IMG/VR virus record: IMGVR_UViG_3300037882_002606
Location: 1-31,663 of that record
Strand: one strand, 5' to 3'
Length of the DNA: 31,663 nucleotides
Source: a virus
This document shows positions 3,141 through 31,224 of the stretch, one piece after another. Every line of letters starts with the position of its first letter. Position 1 is the first letter of the stretch. Under the pieces are notes generated by a model, which saw only the letters and a list, made by a program, of their open reading frames with translations, made no database searches and was not told the origin of the DNA. The translations under genes and the position numbers were made by a program.

Positions 3141-4694
3141 ATGTGAAAAACAGAGATCAAGATTAATAATTTTGAAGGAGGTGTTAGTACAATACAATCT
3201 TGATCGATGAGTGACAATCAACTGCTGGTTGCTAAAAACATGTATTACAACAAAGATAGACAACTAATAACAAGAATGGGATATAAAGAGTATTTGCCAA
3301 AAATATCGACAAACCCTATCACGTCGTATTTCTTTCATCAGAGGGATGATTGACAAGGTAAGTTTGTTCTTGCTGTATGTGGTGATGTAATGTATTCGTA
3401 CAACGAGGGATTAAATGCACGAACAAGTATCAAGACATGAATTGCAGAGTTTGAAACAAATCCTTTATTTAATTGAGCAAGAACCCGTCGAGATTTTGCG
3501 GTATACAACAACATTGTTTATATGTGTAACGGTGTAGACAACTATGCAAGCCGAAACGGTACAACATATACGGAGTACTCTGGACAACCAAAATGTCGTT
3601 ATATCCAATACTTGTGAGATAGAATATATTGAGCATGAGAAGACGCAAACCCTATTACTCTATACTACACGTGAGCAGTACCAACCAATGCCAACACACT
3701 AAACGCAAATTTTGTCAAAGTGGGAGGCGACGAGACATGAGCTATAAACTGATTGTCTGAAATATGAAACCTTATTATTGCGACAAAGGATGCAAAAATA
3801 TATGTAGTAAATCCTGTGTCATGAACCGCAACGCCTATAGATGCTCAAGGTGGATGATTTTGTAATAGATCTTTAAAAAATGTGTGAAACGCACTTGTTT
3901 TTTTCAACGAAAAGGGTATAGATACACTGAAACAAAGGCAAGGAGTAACGTGATCTACATGACTAGAAACAAGTAGTATATCAGAAGACGTAATCACAAT
4001 ATTCAACAAGGTGCAACGCAAAAACTACAACTTTCAGTGTTCTATGTATAATCGTATAGATTGAAAGTATTATGTTTGTATAGATAGTAACAACGACACC
4101 GTCCCAGATACTATGCTTGTGTTTTCGTCTGTTACATGAAGTTGGACATCGTATGATATGCCTAGTATGTTTGATATGTGAATATATATAGACAACAATC
4201 AAAATACACACTATTTGTTTGCATGAACAGATTGACAGATGTATGAGTTTGAGGCGTGAGGTGTTGATTATTGAAACAGTATATCGTACGAGGCACAAAC
4301 AAAAAAACGAGATGCTGGCGAACCATGAAGACTAAAAACATATTCTTATATAGACATAATATGATATAAGTCGGCGTGAACAGCAATAGATGTGTGAGTA
4401 TATAGCGAGGACATATTCCAAACGTGAGGGTCTATTACTGATGCAAACATAGACTATAGTGTATCTTACAAAACAATATGATCTGCTTCTGTGTGATCGT
4501 TGCCACTATGATGAGAACAACAAGGAGACGAAACAAAAATATACCTATATTCTGTTCGTATAGCGTGTTACATAACATGACAAAACATATCGTTGAAGCT
4601 ATCGTCTGAATGATGAACACGAACAATCGATAGAGTGAGGATAGGAATAGAGTGACAACCAATAGATGTATTTTATACCAATCAATATTTATAA
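3141..4694 (+). CDS. Large tail/stopper-type structural protein (517 aa)
   Basis: Starts MGKTEIKINNFEGGVSTIQS. The INNF-GG opening is common in podoviral tail tube or DNA-stabilisation proteins (P22 gp10-like). The rest is rich in short beta-strand blocks separated by glycines, consistent with a propeller-like fold: for example YNNIVYMCNGVDNYA, IGNLIIATKDAKIYVVNP, ALVFFNEKGIDTLKQ. Most glycines are UGA, so under the standard code the gene would be split into about forty fragments. It sits between the adaptor and the 715-aa tail protein. The expected role is closing the portal channel and linking it to the tail. Confidence 0.6.
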
Positions 4695-4706
4695 CATATA
4701 TAAAAC

Positions 4707-6854
4707 ATGGCAAACATCGATCTATATCCACTACAAGACTGATACGAAAGCAAATTGTCTCAACCATACGATGGTACTTGATCTACATTGTATGTTGATA
4801 GTGTTCCGTTGTGAACATTGCCTTCTTGATATAAGATATTGGTTACCATAAATCCGTGAACAACATACGCACAAGCCGTAGAGGTTAGTGGTTGGAGTTC
4901 TTGACAGCTCAACGTGTCGTCTACTACAATAGAGAAAGCAAACGGAGTAAATTATCAAACCAGGTCTCATGGTGCAAAAAGTCCAATAGTTATTTCCGAT
5001 AATTTTTGATATCGGAAGGAGATTACAAGTGCTGTAAACACAAAAGCCGACACAAACAGTTCTGTTTTTATTTGAAAATACCAAAACGCCACAGCAAGAG
5101 ACGCAGCAATAGTGAGTCCAGTAAATGGTGTATATAGCGTGTACCTTACAGATGAGTGATATTGGACTGATTATGTGTGAGGGGTTTGGGTGTCTCGTGC
5201 TACATGAGCAACACCTAACGCAAGCGAAACTGTAGCTTGAAAATTAGAAGTAGCGACACAATCGCAATATGATTCATCTACAACTACATGAGAGACTTGA
5301 GCACCATTGGTGCCGACGATAGCACAAATCAAATCAAATATAGCCACAAGTGTAGAACCATTGGCTTCACCATCCGCAATATACGAAAAAGACACATACA
5401 TAGCATGAGAGGATTTACTGGCTAACGATTGTTTGTTTGTTGAAAGCTGACCGCTATACTCTGCAAGCCTATCAATATTGAGAATATGAGATACAACAAA
5501 CAATAGTAGACAAGCTTTTGTTGTGTTTTGATCTGGTGTTTCCTGATCTACAATTAAGCTATGACTTATCAAATATGGAGCAGCACACACCAATTGACTT
5601 ACTGTAAGGATAGAGACTATTGATTGATCAAACAATCCAACTGGAACATTATTCCATGCAAACGCAACTGTTACTATACCTGCATCTAGTATAACAACAT
5701 CTTTGGTAGACACAACTGTTACGTTCCCTTGATCTTTTACAATACCTATAGGAAATAGGGTTGTTGTTGTGTTAACACAAGATGTTGTAAGCTCAACTAA
5801 CCATTATTGATTTTGATGTGTGTGATACAATACAACAACAAGACTAATTAAAACATATAACTGATCCGCATGGGGTGTTGCAAACATTGTTTTAATAAAT
5901 GATGTGTTTGCTTCTTCTATGGGAACAGGTATATCTGGCGAAACAACAACTTGAGCATTAATTGAGGTAAAATATGATTTAACAATAAACACAATAACAA
6001 AATCAAGCGTATGTAATGCCACGCAGGTCAGACTAACAAAAACCGACAATACAACAACAACATATAGTTTTTCATGAAACACAGCATCTACTTCTTTTGT
6101 TTGTAAAAAATGAGAATTTGTTCGTATTGAGTGTTTGTCGTATTCAAGTTATGCAACAAAAAACCCACAAACTTTCCCAATAAATTTACAAAATGTAAAC
6201 GTTGTTGCTTGAATGTCTAATTGAGGAACAAGTAGTTCTATACTTTATAATATCGTGGACATTACAACAACAAAAAATTTTGTTTTCCCATACGTTTCTT
6301 CAACATTATTGTTAAACAACTTGCTATGCAAAACATCTGCTACATACGACTACAAAACACCAATAATGTCGAGGTTTGCTAAATCAGCATACACAAGGTG
6401 ACTTTTGGTAACATCAACGCTACTGTGACAAATTGTTATAACATGAGTGGTTAAAAATGGTTTATATTTTATTTCCAACACTCCTTGACTAGTGTCTACT
6501 GTAGAGTGAGATAATTCGCAAGTTGTATGATTTTGATCTGAAGAAAATATATTATACATAGATACAAACAAAAAAATTCAAAGACAACCGCTAACTCTTT
6601 CTACAAACACCTCATACAAAGCAAAAACAGATATGTATTTGATGCTTTCTGCTAATTGAGTATCAAACAACATATACCAGTCAAACATATCTATATGACC
6701 AATGATACAATCTATTGTTTCTGCGACAATCTGGAGCAACACTTATTGACCAAATCCGCTTTCTATTCAGGCTTTTGTGAGAAAATGAGAGTTTTTCTCT
6801 CTAAACATATCTTGAGCTAACACATTGGTAGTATCTAAATGATATTATATTTAA
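4707..6854 (+). CDS. Tail fibre / receptor-interaction protein (715 aa)
   Basis: Begins MANIDLYPLQDGYESKLSQP and ends with TAA. The N-terminal part has SHGAKSPIVISDNFGYRKEI followed by TSAVNTKADTNSS, similar to the attachment region of podoviral tail proteins. The long remainder is Thr/Ser/Asn/Gly-rich with low-complexity beta character, typical of trimeric fibres or spikes. A block near GKLEVATQSQYDSSTTTGET resembles the repeats near the ends of fibre genes (GLVELATNAE-type). Most glycines are UGA. Likely role: adsorption to the host surface. No enzymatic motif was seen. Confidence 0.65.
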
Positions 6855-7319: not shown

Positions 7320-9299
7320 ATGAATCCATTCGAAAGACGAAAATTAGAAAAATCAAAAAAACCAGTAGTAAACAACGATATTCCAAAAACATCTTTGACA
7401 GATGTAGTGAGCAAGGTTGGTGGTTTTGTGTCTTGATTTGTAAACCCACAAGAAAAAACCTTAAATTCAAAACAATTGCCTTATGAGCAAAATGTTGTTT
7501 TTGGTAGTTCCCCAAAACTAGCAACACGTGAAAATCCTGTAATTTCTGTGTCTACAAAACCACAAATGGTAGACATAAACACAGCTGACCAAAACACACT
7601 ATTGAGAGAGCAGGACGCAATCAATTATAAGATTGCAACTTGATCTTTTTCTCAAGATGATTTTGTAAGGGGACGTGAAATATCAAGAAAACTTGCAGAA
7701 AGTATGTATAAAGTGCCTGAAGCCACAACAAACCCAATTATATCACAACTAGAACAACAAGCCCAATCAATACAATCAAGAGACGGCAAACCAATGATTG
7801 ATGTAAGAAAAGCACAGCTACAAGCTAATTTTGATACAAAAAGAATGCAACTAGAAGAAAACGCAAGAAGAGCAAGAGAAAGCACAATAGGTAACATAGC
7901 AATGGCTGGCGGAGGTCGTTCTAGTGTTGCACAACAAGCCGAGCTAGATATACAAAAACAACTACAAAACCAACTAAATGCGGAGCAGGCAGCTATGAAT
8001 TTAGAGATTATGGCGTACGAAAGAGAGTTGGCTGGTGCAGACAGTCAAGAACTTTCTAACATAAATGAAAGCATAAATGCGTTGCGTCAACAATCCGCTA
8101 TGTGACAACAAGAGTTACAACAAAAGGCACAAGCAAAAATACAGGAAGCGACAGCTTATTTTGACAACAATTTACAAAATCTTGCGAGGAAACAAGGAAT
8201 ACAACTAGACGTGAACGATGAAAAAACGCTAGAACAAATAATCTCCATAGCAAGAAACCCTGACTGAACAGTAAATCAAGCATTCTTGAAAACAATAGAT
8301 CCAGCGTATCAAGAATTATTGAAGTCATGAGTTTTTGCGTGAATATGAGTTCCTAAAGAAGAACCGAAGCCACAATTTGCACCAAAAATAGAGAGATTGT
8401 GAGGCACAACAAAAAATCCAATATATTGATACCGAGACCCAAACAAATCAGAATTTGTGACTACTAATTCTATAGGAACACCAACGTGAGGCGTAAGAAC
8501 ATGAGGATGATGATATGTTGGTGGGGCAACACAATCGTGAGGTGTACAAACAGAAGTGGCACAAACAGAAAACAAGATATGGGATGATGGTGAGACGTCT
8601 TTGTATGTGTCGTTCATGGAAAAATGATCTATGCCGAGTAAGTGGGTCGTGCAATCTGCATGAGGTGCGGACGCATTTAGGCAAAAAGCAAACGCATATT
8701 ACCAAGATTTTCTAAATAGTAAAATATGATCGGCTTGATGACAAATTACCAATATGCAATTGGCGAAAGAAGCGTTTAAAACTAAAGGTTCTAATTGACT
8801 AAACGCAGACATGAAGAAAATAAACAGTGTCTTACAAGTATTAAACCAATATGAACAGGATATTGTGGATTGATGATTGTCGTGAAAATTGGGCGTTACA
8901 ATATGAAACCAAACAATATGAACAGATGCTAGTAAAAAAATAAAACAATCAGAGTCTTCGTTGCTTACTAAACTAAAAGAGCTTGAAAACTTATGAGTGT
9001 TGAATTGACCAGATGTTGGGATTTTACAAAAAGCAATATGATGATGAACACTTACAACACCAGAACAGATGGTAAATGGTGCACAAAACCTAAGAAATTC
9101 TTTGTATAACCAACTAAATGCACAAAACAAAGTAAATTGAATTGTGTTTAATAACCCTTGAAACACCTACACCCCTAAAAAAGAAGAACAACAAACAACA
9201 AAAGAAACACAGCCCGTAACAAAAGAAAAACAAAAACCAACAGAAACAAACAAACAAGCTAAAACTAAAGAAATATATTCTTTATTTTGAATAAACTAA
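7320..9299 (+). CDS. Probable internal virion / DNA-ejection protein (659 aa)
   Basis: Starts one base after the preceding stop (MNPFERRKLEKSKKPVVNND). Residues about 125-290 form long Gln/Ala/Glu-rich helices (AQLQANFDTKRMQLEENARR). A Gly-rich linker follows (VRTGGGGYVGGATQSGG), then a compact helical domain, then a Lys/Thr/Gln tail. This helical, Ala/Gln-rich, low-complexity make-up is typical of podoviral ejection proteins. Position between tail genes and the second large protein fits. No lytic transglycosylase motif could be identified. Confidence 0.5.
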
Positions 9300-9300
9300 T

Positions 9301-11415
9301 ATGCCACCAATTGTCAATCCATTAAACAAAACAATAAACAAAAAAGATGGTTTGGGTGTTTTTAGTGTTATTCCGTGACCTTTAAACAACGATCCACTTG
9401 CACAATTTAAAGTGTGAACAAAAGCAAAAAACACAAATAACATTGTTTTTGATGGAACAAAACCACAACAGCAACAAACAATAAAAAAACAGTTAGATGA
9501 AACAAAAAACAACGCAAAAAAACAAATAGCTGATAGTATATTAAACAAAACAAGCATAGACGCAAACACTCTAAAGTACGCAATAGAGCGATTGTCTAAC
9601 GACAAAAAAAAGCAAATAGCGGACGCTATTGTAGAATCTTGAATAGAAGTTGTTTGACTTAAAACATATCAAACTAAAAAAAGCACGCCAACACAGAACG
9701 AATGATCTATTAAATGACAACTTATATGACAATGACAAAACAGGTTTTTTAAACCAATTATGTCTACTGTTCCTGGCGAACCATACAATCCACTAAAAAC
9801 TGTTGTTAACACATTGCCTAGTGCGGGGAATGTTTTGGTTGATATATGATGATTAGCTAAAAACATAATCACTGACCCCATAGACACAGTATGAAATATA
9901 TTGTCTGTTCCGGTGTGACTATGATTGCAGGCTAGTAAATATATATGGGGAAAGTGAGCCGAAGCGTTGTGATACGATACGTCAAGTGTAAATACAAAGA
10001 CACAACAAGAAAGAAACGCAAATATACCTCAAGTTATAGCAGAATACATGAACAAAAGCGAAGCAAACGCAAACGCTGTAGTTGAATATGTAAAATGATA
10101 TTGAAACACACAAGAACTAAAGCGTAGACTAGAAGAAGACCCTGTTTCTGTTTTGTCTGATATAACCACACTTGTGTCGTGAGGAGCGTCGATTTCTGGC
10201 AAGCTATGAAGGATTGGTGCTTTGTGAGAAGCTGGGAAGACGGCAGAGTTTGCAAGCAAGGTTTCTAAAATATGAAAAGCGGCAAACAAAGTAGATCCAT
10301 TTAGTTTTATTCCCAAGTATACATATAAATGAATATCAAAAGCAACTTGATTAACAAAAGATGTTTGAGTTGGCGTGTTAGGTAAGACAACATGAACGAG
10401 TGCAGATACAATAAAGCAAGTATACGAGTCAGCAAAAAAAGGTAGTAGGTCTGCTGTTGAATGACTACGTGGTAATATAGATGATGTAGATGTTCTAAAA
10501 AACGTTGAAAAATGAATAGAGGATATAAAGACTGATAGAAGGGCTTTATACTGATCATCGTACGAGAAGTTAAAATCGAATAAAACGCCAATAGATATAA
10601 ACAATATATGACTTTCTACATTACAGAGTATGTACGATGATCTTTGAGTAAGAGTTAGCAAAGATTGAGTTTTGGACTTCTCACAATCAAAAATAACATC
10701 AGCACCAGCACAAAAGAACCTACAATCTATAATAGACGATATGTCAAATTGGGAAGATAAAACACCAGCATGACTTGACATATTAAAACAAAGAGTGCAA
10801 GACTACTTTAGATGAACGCCAGAGTTCGCAAAATCAGATAGGTTTTCTACAAAGGTTGCAAACAGCATAAAAGATGCTATAACAGAGCAAGTGCCAGAAT
10901 ATGCAGAGATGACAAGAAAGTATGCAGAGACATCGAAACTATTGGATGATATAAGATCAGCGATATCTGTTTGAGGTAAAGCATGAACCAGTACAGCAAT
11001 CACAAAACTAAAATCAGCACTAAGAGACAACCAAGAATTTAGAAAAGAAATGGTAAAAAGAATAGAAGAGTATTCATGAAAAGATATATTATGACAGATA
11101 GCGGGTTTGCAGATGTCGCCACTAGTACCTAAGTGATTGGCTGGTGTGTGAGTGTGATTGTGAGTGTGAGGAGGTTATCTTGCATCTATGCTTGACCCTA
11201 CTTTTATATGATCGTTATTGTTGACAAGTCCTAGATTGGTGTGAGAAGTTGCTAATGCTTTAGGTGTATGAGTGTGGGAATTGAATAGGTTTGTAGATAA
11301 AGTAAAATCATTTATTCCAAAAGCAAAAAATGTATGAAATAATAGTGCTAATAGTAGTAATAAATTGAATATATTGTCTAATTGATGAAATAAAAAAGTA
11401 AAACAAATTTTCTAA
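9301..11415 (+). CDS. Large virion protein, ejection/polyvalent-protein type (704 aa)
   Basis: Starts MPPIVNPLNKTINKKDGLGV. The N-terminal third is disordered and Lys/Gln-rich. A hydrophobic Gly/Ala-rich stretch lies around residues 180-205. A conserved-looking segment, PEYAEMTRKYAETSKLLDDI, precedes DALRDNQEFRKEM-like helices. The C-terminus contains a Gly-rich hydrophobic segment (GLAGVGVGLGVGGGYLASML) that could insert into membrane. The P-YA-M-+Y-x-S-LL motif recurs in large internal proteins of phages. Together with the previous gene it probably forms the ejectosome. No clear tape-measure protein is present elsewhere. Confidence 0.5.
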
Positions 11416-11428
11416 TACTAAAAACCAA

Positions 11429-12877
11429 ATGACCACAAAAGAACTAGCACGCAAAGAATTAGCAATACAGAAACTCGAAGAGATCTACTCAAAAGAGAGA
11501 AGTAGTTTTGAGTGTTTTTTTAGGACAATGCGAAAAGAAGAATATGTAGATCCTCTTATACGAAATCGGCATATGGAAGAGATGTGTTATAGATTACAAA
11601 AGGTAGCAGAAGGTAAGACGCAAAGACTAATTATAAATATATGTCCTAGGTCGTGAAAAACAGAAATGATATTGAAACTATTTGCATTGCGAATGATGGG
11701 AAGGAACAATAGTAAGATAATGAGTCTCTCCGCATCTCTATGATTGGTGCAAAGATCGTCACAATGAGCGAGAGACTTATTCAACAGCAAAGCATACAAG
11801 ATGATATTCCCTAGAGTGTGAGGGATAAAAAAAGATCAAGATACAAAGACGTATTGGAAAATAGATGCAGGTGCGGAATACTATAGTGCGTGATTTGATG
11901 GAACTATAACATGAATTGGTGCAAACTTGATACTAATTGATGATCCTATGAAAGCACAAGATTTATCAAGTCCAGTGATCCTTAACAAAACTATAAATAT
12001 TTACAATCAAACAATTAGATCAAGATTAAACAAAAATAAGCAAGGTGCCATAGTCATAATTATGCAGAGATTACACGAAAGAGACCTTATTGGACACATA
12101 TTAGAGCAAGAAAAAAAAGGCATTGAAGACACACGAGAGAAGCTCATTATACCTGCCATTGTTGATTGAGAAAACGGACAAGAGAGTTTCTTTCCTGAAA
12201 TGTTCCCTCTTGACAAACTTATGAAAGAAAAAACAATAGATCCTGCCAACTTTGCTTGCCAATATTTGCAGTCTCCATCTAGTGAAACAAGATCTGAATT
12301 TAAACGTGATTGGTTTAAGTATTACAAAACGTTTCCAGTAGGTATGAGGGTATTTATAACAATAGATCCAGCGTTTACAAAGAATGTACATAGCGACCAA
12401 ACAAGCATTATGGTATGATGATTTGTTGGCGACAATCACTATATATTAGAATATAGGGCGTGAAAACGAGACATAAACGAACTTATGCAAGAGGCAGTAG
12501 GAATGATTGGGAAACACAAACCAGAAAAGGTATGAATAGAGACTGTTGGTGGGCAGTTAGTATTGAAAACAACATTAGAAGATCTATTGCAAAAAAACAA
12601 GATATACACTATAGTAGAGTGAATAAACACAAAAAGCAACAAAGAAACAAAAATAAGGTCGTTACTTGTAAAATATGCAAATTGACTTATACGGCATAGG
12701 GTGGAGCATTTGGAACTAGAGAAGCAGCTGTTGGAATTCCCAAAGTGAGCACATGATGATATTGTAGACTCTCTTGCTATGCAATATGAAATACATAGAC
12801 CAACAGAAGAAACAAACAACATAGGCATGTGATTACAAACAAGTACTGACTATTATTGAAACACTATTTATCACTAA
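11429..12877 (+). CDS. terL: Terminase large subunit
   Basis: A 482-aa ATPase/nuclease that pumps DNA into the prohead. The Walker A motif is CPRSGKTE at residues 72-79, and its glycine (G76) is a TGA codon. Walker B is LILIDD at 167-172, preceded by FDGTITGIGA (two more UGA-glycines nearby). The nuclease domain shows the expected acidic residues: FITIDPAF at about 310, GIETVGGQ, and GAHDDIVDSLA near the C-terminus. Length matches the family. It starts 13 bases after the ejection protein and precedes the portal gene by 9 bases. The motifs make sense only with UGA as glycine, so this gene also serves as evidence for the code. Confidence 0.95.
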
Positions 12878-12886
12878 ATATATATA

Positions 12887-14758
12887 ATGAAAGTAACACT
12901 CAATCACAAACAACAAGAAAAAATTATAGCACACGTTGTAAACACACACCAACAATACGAAGTGTTGATGAAATCATATCTTGCTGATAAGGCGGAAGAG
13001 TATGAGGAATACACAACGTTCAAATTGTCTAAAAAAAACGCTTGGGATACCGACGTAAAGGTAAACAAAGCTTTTGAGGCCATAGAAAAGCGAGCTGGCA
13101 AATTGACTAGTAAAGAACCTACTTGGATAACTAGTGTGAGACCAGATATAGAATACACACTATATTCTTGAGACGGTGAATGATTACAAAATGAGGTTGA
13201 CAACATAAAAAAAACATCCCAAATAACAGAAGGCATTTTAAGAGATACCTGGAAAAGGGGTGATGTTGTAGAAGCAAGTGATAGAATGGCAAAGGATTTT
13301 GCTTCTTTGGGCGTTGCTATCTGAAAGGCATCATATAAATATAAGGCTATGTTTAAAGAAGAAGAAACAACAGACGTACAAGTAGATGAAAACTGAGAAG
13401 AAGTTGTATCCAAATCAAGAAGCAACGTATGATTTGTAAAAAAGATACCAACAGTTGATAATGTGTCCATAGATAGGGTATTTTACGATATAAACTACAA
13501 AGATTTTGATGATTTGCCTTGTGTTGTTGAAATAGTAGATGGGATAAGGGCATCTCATATTTTGAGAGACAAAAAGTATATAAACCTTTATAAACTAGAA
13601 GAAATTATAAGGGCGTGAAATGGCAACAGCCAATCTGATCTTGTAAATAACATACTAAATATAACATGAGTAAGAACAATATCGCCAATGGATATAGACA
13701 AAGAGAGTCTTGTTATAAAAGAGTATTATGGGTATTTTAATCTTACTGACGATCCAAAAAAGGAAAAACTGTATCAGTTTTGTGTTGTAAACAATGCTTT
13801 AGTAATACAAGCAAGAGAAATAAAGTCTATACCGTACTGTATGGTAAGATTGTTTGAGGATACGCTATCGTTGAGAGCAAATTGAATAGTAAGACCAGTG
13901 ATAGGGTTGCAAAAAGATTTTAACTTTAAAAGATCTGCAAGGTCGCAAGCAATCAAACAGTCAATAAACAAAAAGTATATTATGTGACCAAATGCATGAA
14001 TATCTCCAAGAGATTTGGCGAAACCCGATTGAATAATTATATCAAGCAAAGATATGGCAACGTTCCAAAATAACTTTATGGAAATAAGGCAATCAGATAT
14101 AAGTCCTAATGTTTTTAATGATGGTATGGATGACCAAAGAGAAATACAAGCTATGATGTTCTCGCAAGACACAACACAACCGTCCGCTTCTTGATCTACT
14201 ATAGATACAGCCACGGGTGCAAAAATAGAGTTTTATGAAAACAACATAGTCATAAATAAAGCAAGGGTAAAGTATGAGAGGTTTTTGGCTAAGTTATGAG
14301 AAAAAGTTCTATACGCTATGGTTGAGAATATGGGAGAACTAGACAATTATTATACAAAAGTAGAAGATAAAGTGTTTGCAGTTCATAAAGAAAAAATAGA
14401 AAAAGCCTTAAACGATATGACTATTTCTATAGAAATATGATCGACAAACTATGAAAAAGAAAAACAAAGAAGAGATGAATTGATAGCAATACAAAATATA
14501 TTAGAAAAAGCAAAAGCACAAGGCTCTAACGTTAATACCGACAAGAATCTAAAGAACCTACTGGAAACGTTTAATATAAAAGATATTGATTCTTATTTCT
14601 TGCCAAACATGCAAGCTTTATGATTGTGACGAGAAACACAAAGTATTGCTTGACAAACACAACAAAAAACCATATCAAATAGTGTAAACACTACATGAAA
14701 CCAAACTATGGATATGACAAACAGTATCGCTGGAACGTCTATCAATTTACCAGTATAA
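12887..14758 (+). CDS. Portal protein (podoviral type)
   Basis: A 623-aa protein from ATG 12887 (MKVTLNHKQQEKIIAHVVNT). The N-terminal helices and the segment EPTWITSVRPDIEYTLYSGD, followed by the wing/clip-like middle (VSIDRVFYDINYKDFDD), resemble portals of the P22-like group. The C-terminus has a Gln-rich helix and a disordered tail. Length (about 620) and position directly after the terminase and ahead of scaffold and capsid agree with a portal. It forms the dodecameric DNA channel at the capsid vertex. Confidence 0.8.
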
Positions 14759-17285: not shown

Positions 17286-18383
17286 GTGGAAGAATTGGAA
17301 GATATAATCGATCTCATGAGATGAGAAGACGGGACATCTATCGTAGATGTTTTTGTAAATAAAAAAGAAATAAAAAAATACCAAGAACTGGTAAATGAGT
17401 TACATCTTGTAGTAGAAACAGATGATTGAGAGTTTATAGATGCGTGAAAAGTTGTATGAGAGAAAGGGGAAGACTGAAAGGATGGGAAAGACTGAAAAGA
17501 TGGCAAAGATTGAAGAGATTGAGTAGCTGGTAAAGACGGGAAAGACGGCAAAGATGGTGTTGATTGAGTAGATGGGAAAGACTGAAAAGATGGCAAAGAT
17601 GCTTCTGATGTGTCTTGAGATATAATTGTTGAAAAAATCAACAAGTGAGACAAAAGAATACACAGATCAAAACTAGACCTTCCAACTTATTGAGTGCCAA
17701 GTTTTAGCCACATTACATGAATAGACACCAATAATGAAAAAGATGGTGACTTTTTAGTGTATAAAAAAAGTCGTTGAGAGCGAGAAAATAAAGCAATTGT
17801 GTGAGTAGAATGATGATTTGCACCACTAAACTCATCACTAAAAATACCATCTACATATTTGCCATCGTATGTTGATGATATACTAGAAGTACAGTCTTTG
17901 CCATTAGCTTGAGAGACTGGTAAAATATATATAATTACATCTTGAATAAATATCAATAAGTCTTATAGATGGTCTTGATCTCAATGGGTAGATTTAAATT
18001 TTTATGGGAAATGGTGATTTATAACATGAAACGTGTTAGATCAGCCAGATATACATTGAATGTATATAAATATTGCTGAGTTAAATTGAATAACCCAATC
18101 AACACAAACAACAGTTGGTAATCACGAAAACACACTATCTTTGCAACAAAACGAAATAAATAAACTAAAGAGCGTTGTAACAAAAACAGACAGTAGTGTT
18201 ATTTACTGAACAGATTTTAGACTATCAAGAACTCCACTAAAGAGAGGTGTATATTGAGTTTTTGTTGAATGACTAAGGTATTCAGAATGATGGAAATTAA
18301 TATGAAAAAACATTGTATTTAAACAAAAATTAAAAACAAATAGTTGAACAAGTGTTTCTGTAGTATACCCTTGTGTAGTATAA
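17286..18383 (+). CDS. Collagen-like tail fibre protein
   Basis: A 365-aa protein probably starting at GTG 17286 (VEELEDIIDLMRGEDG); the frame opens at 17268 and no nearby ATG is better placed. Residues about 58-105 are 16 perfect Gly-X-Y triplets, mainly GKD/GVD/GRD. Seven of the 16 glycines are TGA, so reading TGA as tryptophan would destroy the repeat. The repeat is followed by a helical linker (IIVEKINKGDKRI) and a beta-rich C-terminal region (YIITSGINI, WSGSQWVDLNFYGKWGF) ending in TAA. Collagen-like stretches are common in phage fibres, where they form trimeric shafts. The C-terminal region may bind receptor. Confidence 0.8.
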
Positions 18384-24178: not shown

Positions 24179-24598
24179 TTAACAAGTGGTATATAAAAGT
24201 CGTTCTTTGTTTCTTCTTTTAACCAATCATCATTGTTTTTTTCATGATGCGTATATATACGATTTTCGTCTACTTTCAGTAATTTTGTTTCTTATATGTT
24301 CATAACAAGACGGACAATTCCAGTATAAAGAAATCAATGCTCACTGTTTGCATGTAGACAATCATGGATTTTCATAAACTATTTTGTCGTGCCTGCCTTG
24401 TAACGCCTTTTTATACCTTATAAAAACTTCTTCTTTTGTTATTGTTTCTCATTTATAACTTTTTGTACCAAACCCTATTGATCGTTGTTTGTGGTCAAAA
24501 TATGCAACTTCCCTATATCACTCTAAATTTTTTATGATATGATATGCGTACTCGTACGCAGACAGCCTAGCCTCCACTTTACTATTACCTATCTCCAT
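24179..24598 (-). CDS. GH24-type phage lysozyme (endolysin)
   Basis: A 139-aa protein. IIKNLEGYREVAYFDHKQRS followed by IGFGT at residues 21-45 matches the T4-lysozyme family pattern in which Glu (E26) is catalytic and the D and T/S residues follow (D35, S40). GETITKEEVFIRY and CKQGALISLYWNCPSC correspond to the conserved second half (Q-AL-S-x-N). The glycine after the catalytic Glu is UGA. It cleaves peptidoglycan glycan strands. It sits in the leftward early module, away from the holin, which is unusual. There is no signal peptide; the C-terminus is Lys/Arg-rich. Confidence 0.8.
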
Positions 24599-24979: not shown

Positions 24980-25312
24980 CTAAAAAATCTCATCTTCAAT
25001 AAAAATTTTGTTTTCATCTTTGTTTCATCAAGACGTTTTGTCTAACTTTCGACAATTAATTGATTGGTAGTGTTTTCATGTTTTTGAAGAAAAATTTGAT
25101 TTAAAATTTAAGTGTGCCGATACCATATCTCACAAACACAAACCATTTGCCATTTCGATCTTTTCTTTAAATAAATCAAACTGTATTGTGTTTGGGTATT
25201 GGCTTCAAGAAACCTCTTTTATAGCAATTGTTTTTTTTTCAAGTCAATTGCTGCCAATTGTTTCTGTTTGTCAAATATAAACAACCTCTCATTCAAAATC
25301 TGTACTAAACAT
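24980..25312 (-). CDS. DUF3127-like OB-fold protein (possible ssDNA-binding), copy A
   Basis: A 110-aa protein starting MFSTDFEGEVVYIGQTETIG. The pattern GEVVYIGQTETIG-x-NG-x-KK, then SQYPNTIQFDLFKEKIEMAN, then GDMVSAHLNFKSNFSSKTGK follows the DUF3127 family, small OB-fold proteins frequent near phage recombination genes and suspected to bind single-stranded DNA. The C-terminus is acidic (NKIFIEDEIF), as in SSB-type proteins. It is the first gene after promoter P3. A paralogue lies at 25680-25955. Confidence 0.7.
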
Positions 25313-25409
25313 TATTAAACAATAGTAAATAAAAAACGCTACATAGATATACTCCTGCGACCAACCTTTCGATTGAAGAATACACCTATGTAGTGTGGTG
25401 ATTGGTCGC
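25313..25409 (-). ncRNA. Structured leader L3 with an H-type pseudoknot
   Basis: Two perfect 8-base pairings interlock. Plus-strand CTACATAG (25339-25346) pairs with CTATGTAG (25386-25393), and GCGACCAA (25357-25364) pairs with TTGGTCGC (25402-25409). The order A-B-A'-B' defines an H-type pseudoknot. AGATAT/ATATCT (25345-25350 with 25419-25424) could extend it. It lies between P3 and the start of the DUF3127-like gene. Compact pseudoknots in 5' leaders often act as riboswitches, protein-binding sites or exonuclease blocks; ligand unknown. Confidence 0.65.
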
Positions 25410-25415
25410 ATTGAT

Positions 25416-25679: not shown

Positions 25680-25955
25680 TTAAATGTTTTGTGGATCGAT
25701 TTTTGATGATGTTATTGTAGTATAGTATTTTTGTGTTTTAGTATAACGCATTTTTTTAAAAACAAGTTGTACAGAAACAAGGTCTCAAACTCAATGGTTA
25801 CAAATAAGTTGCATTTTGTCTTCAAACAAATCAACACATATTGATTGTTTTTTTGTTTCGTTTTCTAAGACAAAAGATATTTTTTGCAATAGGTTTTCTT
25901 TATTTTCAATGGTTTCTATTGGTCAAATATAGGTAATTTTTCAATCATAATTCAT
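25680..25955 (-). CDS. DUF3127-like OB-fold protein, copy B
   Basis: A 91-aa protein (MNYDGKITYIGPIETIENKE). It parallels copy A: ITYIGPIETI versus VVYIGQTETI, ICVDLFEDKMQLIC versus IQFDLFKEKIEMAN, GDLVSVQLVF versus GDMVSAHLNF, and KTQKYYTTI versus KTGKHYQSI. The acidic C-terminal tail of copy A is missing. Two diverged copies in separate promoter units, one with ERF and Gp157, suggest specialised ssDNA-binding roles, perhaps a heteromer. Confidence 0.6.
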
Positions 25956-26465: not shown

Positions 26466-26746
26466 TATAATTGTTGTGAAAAAACAAAATCAACTTTTGC
26501 CTCTGGAAGATCATAATAACTTATTTGTTCATATTTTCGCCAATCACTGTAGTATAACCTCCCCCAGTATTCTGCAATAAAATATATTACATTATTCAGA
26601 TACCCATACCGTTCATCGTGTGACATATTAGATGTTGTATTTTTTTTATATCAAACCTTGAACATTTTGTGCAATCAATCTTTGTTAAATCATAGTCGAT
26701 CAGCAGTTATAGATATTATAGCTCGATAGTATTTACGCATTTTCAT
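26465..26746 (-). CDS. NinB/recombination-associated small protein, 93 aa
   Basis: MKMRKYYRAIISITADRLGF, then KDGLHKMFKVGYKKNTTSNM and RYGYLNNVIYFIAEYWG. The layout KYY-x-I-x-I...G-x-KD-x-LH-x-x-K resembles small phage proteins found beside ERF/Erf recombinases, related to NinB-type orf proteins that help load recombinase onto SSB-coated DNA. The start overlaps the end of ERF by 14 bases. Family assignment is by pattern only. Confidence 0.5.
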
Positions 26747-27311
26747 ACAATCACTTGATTGTTTTTTTTGCTTTATCATCTATGATGTACCTAACAGATA
26801 AATAGTCCATTATGCTGTCAAATGTTGGATATGACTTTTTTGTATTAAATATGTTTAACTTGATGGTGTCTATAACGTCATTTGACATATGTTTTTTTGT
26901 TTCTTGTTTTTTTTCTGTATTTATGTCTTTACTTGCTTGTTTTCCATCATCATCTTCTACCTCAAGATCAAACAAAGCTATTAGATTATACCTTCTGTAA
27001 TATGTGATAGCCGATCCTTTGTCTTGTGCTTTGTTAGAATCTCACATAGGTATAGACGAGGATATGTAGTCGTTTTCTATATCAAGATTTACTATCTTTG
27101 TTACCAACATATTGTTTTCTATGTAGTGAGTAATTAGCACATTGTGGTATTCAAGCAATGGATTTATTTTTTCTTGTATTTGGTCAAGAGCGGCGTATTT
27201 ATAATTAAATCCCTTTGTGTCTCTTGTAAGAGTAATGCGATTTTTTTTGATTTCAAACATTTTTTTATAGATGTTTTTGTTTTTTGTTGTTTGTTGTTCG
27301 GTCAAATCCAT
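26733..27311 (-). CDS. erf: ERF-family single-strand annealing recombinase
   Basis: A 192-aa protein starting MDLTEQQTTKNKNIYKKMFE. NYKYAALDQIQEKINPLLEY, HNVLITHYIENNMLVTKIVN and GSAITYYRRYNLIALFDLEV followed by EDDDGKQ are the core conserved blocks of the ERF family: YKYA-LD, then GSA-TYARRY-L, then the acidic D/E patch. These proteins anneal complementary single strands and can circularise or repair phage DNA. First gene after P2 and leader L2. The C-terminal region, about 60 residues, is a separate helical domain. The UGA-glycines are in PMGDS and KGLYE. Confidence 0.85.
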
Positions 27312-27400
27312 ACTTATACTTTTATGATATAAAACATACAACTTAGTGACTATTCCCCATAGAGTCTCATAATGAGTTGGCTGTGGTGTCTCTCTTGTGT
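27312..27400 (-). ncRNA. Structured leader L2 of the ERF operon
   Basis: Homologous to L1 (136-223). The conserved blocks at 27342-27355 and 27384-27397 flank a variable paired core, here CCA/TGG around CTCA-TTA-TGAG. The leader precedes an ERF start, whereas L1 precedes an unrelated small gene, so the RNA rather than the protein is what is conserved. Confidence 0.55.
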
Positions 27401-27406
27401 GATGTA

Positions 27407-27434
27407 TATATATGAATATGCAATAGAATTGCAA
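27407..27434 (-). promoter_or_regulatory. Early promoter P2 (leftward)
   Basis: TTGCAA (27434-27429), 16 bases, TATATA (27412-27407). A 23-base block around the -35 region is identical to P1. It starts 10 bases after the stop of the 118-aa gene and drives erf and the genes following it. Confidence 0.75.
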
Positions 27435-28857: not shown

Positions 28858-29256
28858 TTATGATTTCTTTTTTTTATTATCTCTTTTTCTCTTCTCGTTT
28901 TCAAAATAATCTATCCGCTCTCATTTGTACTTTACAAGTCGCAATAATGTATAATAAGACTTTACATATAAAAGCATTTTTCTTTTTAACTTTGCTTCAG
29001 GGGTCGCCATCCCCTTTATGTCTACAACATGTATTGTACCATCTGTATATATGACTTCAAAGTCTGCAACATACTCTATAGCTCTTATGTTTTTACCATC
29101 TTTGGTGGTAAATTTTGGCTGTAATATATAGGATGGTTGTATGTTGATATACATTATATCATTTCTTGACTTTAGGTAAGTATAGTATTCGGCTTCTGCC
29201 TTGCTGTCAAATACATGTCAGTCGACTGTTACTTTTTTATTTCTGTATTTGTTCAT
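28858..29256 (-). CDS. DUF1064-family nuclease-like protein
   Basis: A 132-aa protein: MNKYRNKKVTVDGHVFDSKA, EAEYYTYLK, then LQPKFTTKDGKNIRAIEYVA, DFEVIYTDGTIHVVDIKGM and a C-terminal KRKMLLYVKSYYTLLRLVKY. These are the ordered blocks of DUF1064, a PD-(D/E)xK-type fold: the E of SKAEAEYY, the D of ADFEV, and VDIKG holding D-x-K. Members are common in phage replication modules and may process branched DNA. The start overlaps the NinG-like gene by 28 bases. Confidence 0.8.
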
Positions 29257-30059: not shown

Positions 30060-30581
30060 TTATATGCTGTAAATTTTTGTATTTTTTAGCCTCATATCTT
30101 CTCAAGAAAAGATTATTATGTCAGAGTTTAATAACATTCTACTAACAATTCTGTCGTTTAGTTTTTCTGATAGTTCGTTTTTAGATAAATTTGTTGTAAA
30201 AATTGTTATTAGTTTTTTGTTAATTCTTTCGTCCAAAATAAACGTCAAATCCCTTATATAAGCATCACTAGCATCGCTTACTCATATATCGTCGTATAAA
30301 AACATTTTGTATCTCACCATCATTTCAAGGGGATAGTACGCAATATCTGTTTGGTATTCATCTGGTTTTCTTAAAACAAGTTGGTTTGACTTCACCAGTT
30401 GTTTAAACCTTCAGTCGGTTATAGATCAAAAATCAAACTTTGTAGAGTTTCACTCTTTTTTTTGTTTTTCAGAAAATTTTTCAAGTATTTTGTTTGCTGT
30501 GTGTGTTTTTCATGTTCCAGTAGGTCAACAAAAAACAAGTCACTTTGTGTAGTCATACAAACTAAAGTCAAATTTTTCCAT
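30060..30581 (-). CDS. DnaC/IstB-type helicase loader ATPase
   Basis: A 173-aa AAA+ protein. Walker A is FCGPTGTGKTHTA at residues 18-30, in which G19 and G24 are UGA and only G22 is GGA. Walker B is MFLYDDIG, sensor 1 is LITIFTTNLS, and the Arg-finger region is LNDRIVSRML. Order and size match phage DnaC-like loaders, which place the host replicative helicase at the origin. It lies seven bases after the initiator gene, the usual pairing. A standard-code host would stop after 13 residues. Confidence 0.85.
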
Positions 30582-30588
30582 GTCAAAA

Positions 30589-31224
30589 TTACATAAAAGT
30601 AAAATTTTGTCTTGACTCGCTTTTTTCATATTGCATTTTTTCTTTTCAATTGCGAAAATTTTTATTGTTCGATGTTTCTCTGTTTTCTCGTGTTCTAACG
30701 CAAGCTTTCCAGTCCTTCATTTTGTTTTTTCAAACCATCCGTCCATTGCTTTCATAAAAATCAAGAAATTTTTCTGGCAAAACATTGTTTTTTCTTTCTA
30801 AACAGTAATTTTTTAATTCTTCTAATTTTGGTTTTATAAATTTTTTAGAGAGCCCCCTATCTATATTATTTGTATTATTATTTATATATGTATTATTATG
30901 TACACCTTTTGGTGGGTAGCCCTCCACACCTTTTGGTGGGTAGGTATCCACCTTTTGGTGTATAGCTATAAACCTTTTGTTTCAATTTTCTTTTTCTATT
31001 CTCGATGTCACAAATCAATTAGCTACAAGCTCACTAATCCATATTGTTACTTGTTTTTCTGAAACAGAGTATAGTTGGGCAAAATAATTATTACTTGCGT
31101 AGCACTCTCATGTTCTATTGGCGAGTGCTGTTATTTCTCAATACAATAATTTTGAATTTGCTTTTATTTTCGAATATCTAACGTCTGCAGGTATAATGGC
31201 ATAGTAGTTTGGCTGATCTTTCAT
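30589..31224 (-). CDS. Replication initiator (winged-helix, lambda O/DnaD-like)
   Basis: A 211-aa protein. MKDQPNYYAIIPADVRYSKI, LLYGEITALANRTGECYASN, NYFAQLYSVSEKQVTIWISE and LVANGFVTSRI form the common N-terminal HTH_36-like domain of phage initiators. A linker with duplicated YPPKGV follows, encoded by repeats that look like iterons. The C-terminal domain (KPKLEELKNYCLERKNNVLP, FLDFYESNGRMVGKNKMKDW) resembles the loader-interacting region. It would bind the origin inside its own gene and recruit the DnaC-like protein. Confidence 0.8.
30850..30965. repeat. Candidate replication origin: three iterons beside an AT-rich tract
   Basis: ACACCTTTTGGTGGGTAG occurs at 30902-30919 and 30926-30943, and a variant (CCACCTTTTGGTGTATAG) at 30948-30965. 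Each contains the dyad CACC-TTTT-GGTG. The starts are 24 and 22 bases apart, about two helical turns. The adjoining 30850-30899 is almost pure A/T, suitable for unwinding. Iterons within the initiator gene next to an AT-rich element are the lambda-type origin plan. Confidence 0.6.

Follow-up and report, generated by a model that had tools for sequence, protein, structure and literature searches.

A tailed-phage genome predicted to use the genetic code of Absconditabacteria, with UGA as glycine and CGA and CGG as tryptophan

The stretch of DNA analysed (hereafter the window) is 31,663 bases long and corresponds to a single virus record of IMG/VR. A strong match to the terminase large subunit (TerL) and a portal recognised through phrog_332, with the Pfam portal model below its cut-off, place it within the Caudoviricetes. 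The main genes and features are the following, where CGR stands for CGA or CGG and paired scores are given for CGR read as Arg and as Trp, respectively.

3141-4694 (+): virion structural or amidase-like protein; 4 of its 5 CGA codons lie opposite TGG in recoded relatives.
4707-6854 (+): large virion-module protein with 45 TGA; CGG codon 103 lies opposite TGG in 3 of 3 relatives.
11429-12877 (+): TerL, with 16 TGA, 5 CGA and 2 CGG; Walker A Gly76 is TGA, and the predicted Trp47, Trp88 and Trp236 are CGR.
12887-14758 (+): portal or head-tail adaptor (phrog_332, 1e-11; P22_portal, 22.7 bits, below the cut-off).
17286-18383 (+): tail-fibre gene, 365 aa, 31 in-frame TGA, start codon uncertain (PF01391, 34.3 bits; phrog_15439).
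17457-17600 (+): collagen-like (Gly-X-Y)16 stalk, its glycines written as 7 TGA and 9 GGN.
17820-17999 (+): non-collagen fibre module, APLN..IPSTYLPSYVDD..GETGKIY..YRWSGSQWVDL, with TGA codons 209 and 231.
24179-24598 (-): endolysin-like protein, 7 TGA and 3 CGA (phrog_7, 37.6 and 44.9 bits).
24980-25411 (-): ssDNA-binding protein, 8 TGA and 2 CGA (phrog_4932, 47.9 and 53.9 bits).
26733-27434 (-): ERF-family ssDNA annealing protein, by family match.
28858-29256 (-): DUF1064 Holliday junction resolvase, 2 TGA, 1 CGA and 1 CGG (phrog_190, 143.9 and 152.9 bits).
30060-30785 (-): DnaC-like helicase loader, Walker A GPTGTGKT, in which the first and the pre-Lys Gly are TGA.
30589-31224 (-): replication initiator, 6 TGA, 1 CGA and 1 CGG (phrog_15768, 70.3 and 86.3 bits).

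The tail-fibre gene matches many phage tail-fibre families. When TGA is translated as glycine, the 48 codons at 17457-17600 (+) read GEK GED GKD GKD GKD GKD GRD GVA GKD GKD GKD GVD GVD GKD GKD GKD, the glycine codons being, in order, TGA GGG TGA GGG TGA GGC TGA TGA GGT GGG GGC GGT TGA GGG TGA GGC. The initial annotation had described here 16 Gly-X-Y triplets with seven TGA glycines, and both the count and the coordinates were exact, with no TGA out of phase; the remaining 32 codons of the block include 0 TGA and 0 GGN. The hypergeometric probability that all seven TGA codons fall in the glycine phase is 1.6e-4, and the longest run found in 20,000 codon shuffles of the gene was 7 triplets, compared to the 16 observed. 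The curated cut-off of the Pfam Collagen model (PF01391, 27.2 bits) was exceeded only with TGA as Gly (34.3 bits), the scores being 17.4 bits with Cys and 11.6 with X, and the match being lost with Trp or Arg. On these sequence grounds, the Gly-X-Y block is a predicted collagen-like stalk of the tail-fibre protein, in which the changed meaning of UGA is directly visible. Known collagen-like phage tail fibres (PF01391; phrog_1806, phrog_8745) likewise carry a Gly-X-Y stalk inside the fibre protein, but the repeat in the window differs from them in having 44% of its glycines written as UGA.

The module located 3' of the stalk is also present in Cellulophaga, Flavobacterium, Chryseobacterium, Synechococcus and Rhodococcus phages, in a crAss-like phage and in others. 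Its TGA codons 209 and 231 both lie opposite Gly in all seven of the standard-code phages compared, and the TGG adjacent to one of these codons aligns with Trp. As these sites lie in the fibre module, they provide a test of UGA that is independent of the collagen repeat.

The reading of UGA as glycine also held across the genome. The comparison of coding density that had been proposed as a check gave an increase from 0.61 to 0.91 once TGA was taken as sense, with the mean ORF rising from 91 to 210 aa. It had also been noted that no gene ends on TGA, which is true, but this follows by construction once TGA is sense and is not evidence by itself, whereas the gain in coding density is. In the codon usage of 32 genes, TGA accounts for 4.3%, GGN for 2.8% and TGG for 0.46%, so that TGA as Gly yields 7.1% Gly and TGA as Trp yields 4.8% Trp. 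Glycines of the P-loop are written as TGA both in DnaC (xPTGTxKT) and in TerL (RSxKTE). In the alignment with homologues, also proposed earlier, the TGA columns of TerL were 36% Gly and 4% Trp over 92 homologs; positions 76, 155, 162 and 440 were strongly Gly (80/92 in column 76 and 90/92 in column 162). When all 20 residues were tried at the TGA codons against a TerL profile built from 85 homologs, Gly scored best (364.3 bits), followed by Ser (349.7), and Trp was the worst (328.5). The homology data thus show TGA to be glycine, a meaning common to NCBI table 25 and to the Absconditabacteria code.

For CGA (38 codons in the window) and CGG (10 codons), both codons were masked in the query for an alignment test prompted by a published survey (PMC8629427). 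Among 17 CGR columns aligned with recoded relatives, the partner was TGG in 10 and an Arg codon in none; counted by cells, CGR faced Arg in 0/90, compared to 36% for ordinary Arg codons (P ~6e-18 if cells are independent). The TerL profile scored 388.7 bits with both codons as Trp and 362.6 with both as Arg, a preference of 26 bits for Trp; with CGA alone, the values were 383.9 vs. 362.1, and with CGG alone, of which TerL has two codons, 369.1 vs. 364.7. Among 60 TerL codons tested, only TGA, CGA and CGG departed from table 11, a departure being called when the best residue was >3 bits ahead of the next. Reading CGR as Trp also raised the PHROG scores of six independent proteins (TerL, the virion protein, resolvase, endolysin, SSB and replication initiator), and lowered those of phrog_5107 (-4.8), phrog_270 (-2.8) and phrog_6098 (-0.4) as well as two C-terminal terminase Pfam models. 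By homology, CGA thus reads as Trp, and so does CGG, the latter on the thinner basis of 10 codons. Both meanings are those of the Absconditabacteria code, and both differ from the arginine that table 25 requires.

The reading of TGA was put to a predictive test by searching IMG/VR for DNA encoding the TerL P-loop in which TGA stands at the glycine. Of the 8 contigs returned, 7 were TerL relatives (37-39% identity) and 7/7 of these were TGA-recoded. Between the window and these relatives, TGA and GGN exchange freely, while TGG remains Trp. A second predictive test, with a pattern in which CGR was required at the conserved TerL Trp236, gave 19 contigs. The four best TerL relatives (L156, L159, L160 and L165; 38-40% identity, E 1e-105 to 1e-117) were all TGA-recoded, and in 4/4 the profile favoured Trp for the CGR codons, with a margin of 14 to 26 bits; as L156 and L160 are near-identical, they count as about three independent phages. 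The other 15 contigs were more distant, mostly GC-rich and without clear signs of recoding. The pattern combining TGA at TerL Gly76 with CGR at Trp88 gave 23 contigs, 0 of them TerL relatives; a nucleotide search of phages in which 25 kb of the window served as query found nothing, and protein queries with portal, DnaC and endolysin against viral contigs found no relatives.

Several other readings of these codons were considered. Code 4, with TGA as Trp as in Mycoplasma-type phages, is the one that metagenome gene callers limited to codes 4, 11 and 15 would assign. Coding density does not distinguish Gly from Trp, and one TerL codon speaks for the latter, namely codon 330, a TGA whose column is Trp in 31/89 homologs; in the nuclease domain, TGA as Trp even scored ~1.8 bits higher with one Pfam model and 0.4 higher with another. 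Against this stand the last place of Trp among 20 residues at the TerL TGA codons, the Trp content of 4.8% that would result and the loss of the collagen match; homology already refutes code 4, the least credible of all the readings. Almost as hard to believe is C-to-U RNA editing, in which the DNA would retain CGA and CGG as codons for Arg, with CGG becoming UGG in the transcript. A single transition does separate CGG from TGG, and in plant mitochondria such editing was once mistaken for recoding; however, CGA is ~4x commoner than CGG in the window, and its edited form, UGA, would be Gly and not Trp. Very unlikely, if less so than either, is plain code 25, in which TGA would be Gly but CGA and CGG would keep the meaning Arg, as in a phage of Gracilibacteria. 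The related phages L127, L129 and L131 do combine TGA as Gly with CGA as Arg, but the same comparison separates them from the window: 16 CGR columns of L129 had TGG in 0 and Arg in 9, against 10 and 0 in the 17 of the window (Fisher 1.1e-5), and the 26-bit preference of TerL agrees with this. Of the code 25 assigned by the initial annotation, TGA as Gly thus stands, whereas CGA/CGG as Arg gives way to Trp by both the TerL profile and the aligned columns.

The reading that we favour is that the window, very probably, represents most of a tailed-phage genome in which all genes follow the Absconditabacteria code, with UGA as Gly, CGA and CGG as Trp and UAA and UAG as stops. The phage would most likely live permanently in a host with this same code and would use its tRNAs, i.e. 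a Gly-tRNA with anticodon UCA and Trp-type tRNAs reading CGA and CGG. A cell using the standard code would be unable to translate its genes and could not produce the tail fibre, whose gene has 31 UGA codons. A code-switching phage of a standard-code host, in which UGA would be suppressed late to time the lytic genes, has precedents among phages that do so with stop codons (discussed in PMC10746230). In the window, unlike in these stop-suppressing phages, which change code late, replication and virion genes make equal use of the recoded codons: TGA makes up 62% of Gly codons in the replication genes (- strand) and 61% in the virion genes (+ strand), and CGR 0.61 and 0.52 of Trp, respectively. 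No release factor or tRNA synthetase appeared among the family matches of the window, a record that may be incomplete, and no tRNA genes, suppressor tRNAs included, were detected in it or in its relatives. As tRNA genes were not detected and the recoded codons are equal in early and late genes, we infer use of host tRNAs without a switch; code switching, which has no room for CGR as Trp, is even more improbable than plain code 25.

Concerning the host, the combination of UGA as Gly with CGA and CGG as Trp is the code described for Absconditabacteria/Absconditabacterales (Shulgina and Eddy, 2021, PMC8629427; PMC13092985) and not for Gracilibacteria generally, some members of which may read CGG, the only codon reported, as Trp (PMC8629427). 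The earlier proposal of an Absconditabacteria or Gracilibacteria host is therefore supported as to type, and of the two the code favours Absconditabacteria over Gracilibacteria, an inference from the code alone. Hosts were also screened through TGA codons inside rpoB in 380 Patescibacteria genomes, 368 of which had rpoB, drawn from the phylum to which a Paceibacterota MAG with a prophage belongs; low-scoring rpoB suspects were re-inspected, and EF-Tu was used where rpoB was lacking. Among the matches listed for these two genes, none had systematic TGA recoding, and the host was not seen.

A phage with TGA as Gly is of a known kind. Phages with code 25 are known from both Absconditabacteria and Gracilibacteria (Liu et al., 2023, PMC10746230), as is RSA-ATP1, a phage of Strigamonas with UGA as Gly (mBio 2026, PMC13059738); these are also tailed dsDNA phages whose genes are broken under code 11. 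RSA-ATP1 differs in carrying tRNA-Gly(TCA) and other tRNAs. Both reports used table 25, from which the window departs at CGA/CGG; the text of PMC10746230 makes no mention of CGA/CGG, and that of PMC13059738 none of CGA or tryptophan. The new part is CGA/CGG as Trp in a phage, for which no report was found in the open-access papers searched. The Absconditabacteria code itself was described for bacteria, not for their phages, and CGA is commoner in the window (~46 per 10,000 codons) than in the bacteria of the PMC8629427 survey (<37). Two phages in which AGG is Met offer a precedent for sense recoding (PMC8629427): they likewise follow a reassignment by the host without a matching tRNA gene, although codon, amino acid and host (Bacilli) are different.

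Descriptions of recoded phages usually name a single reassigned stop codon, and the proteins are translated with a ready-made table. In the window, table 25 would misprint as Arg every Trp encoded by CGA/CGG, about half of all Trp. CGR as Trp could also serve as a host marker, separating phages of Absconditabacteria from relatives with CGA as Arg without a spacer. A virus that tracks a sense-codon change bears, in addition, on the idea that altered codes shield bacteria from phage.

When a tree of TerL was computed after masking each of the recoded codons, every TGA-recoded phage fell in a single clade (100/100), which also contained L002, a phage without TGA recoding. The five phages with CGR as Trp formed a subgroup (92/90), the window having a long terminal branch; L129, like L127 and L131, which are nearly identical to it, combines TGA as Gly with CGA as Arg, and in L126, L130, L132 and L133 CGA and CGG are nearly absent. 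As its members include phages with CGR as Arg, with CGR almost purged and with CGR as Trp, this one lineage may have crossed host code boundaries and may preserve a path of codon loss followed by capture, a proposal that we hold as evenly balanced. Codon capture predicts absence and then a new meaning, and the tree leaves the direction of change unfixed. In any case, three CGR states within one TerL clade would offer a natural series for studying codon capture.

Three relatives deserve separate mention. L002 (IMGVR_UViG_3300025151_000132), adjoining L129 within the clade, shows almost no gain in coding density with TGA as sense, and some of its ORFs end on TGA; this phage may have reverted, may have changed host or may be compatible with either code. 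The TerL of L126 (IKK[CGG]TPEK) has a lone CGG opposite the TGG-encoded Trp of L130, L132 and L133, and CGG may already be Trp in this phage otherwise without CGR. Outside the recoded clade, a prophage-like TerL relative in a Candidatus Paceibacterota MAG (L047), from another Patescibacteria lineage, uses the standard code.

Three further observations concern the gene map. A second ssDNA-binding-protein gene of the same family (phrog_4932) lies at 25680-25955 (-), near that at 24980-25411 (-). A 499-aa open frame at 9282-10781 (-), antisense to a 704-aa gene at 9301-11415, is probably a side effect of codon bias that appears when TGA is taken as sense. Finally, a 22-bp repeat, CACCTTTTGGTGGGTAGCTATC, occurs in about 3.4 copies at 30903-30979 within the replication-initiator gene; as its period is not divisible by 3, it resembles origin iterons placed within an initiator gene, as in lambda O.
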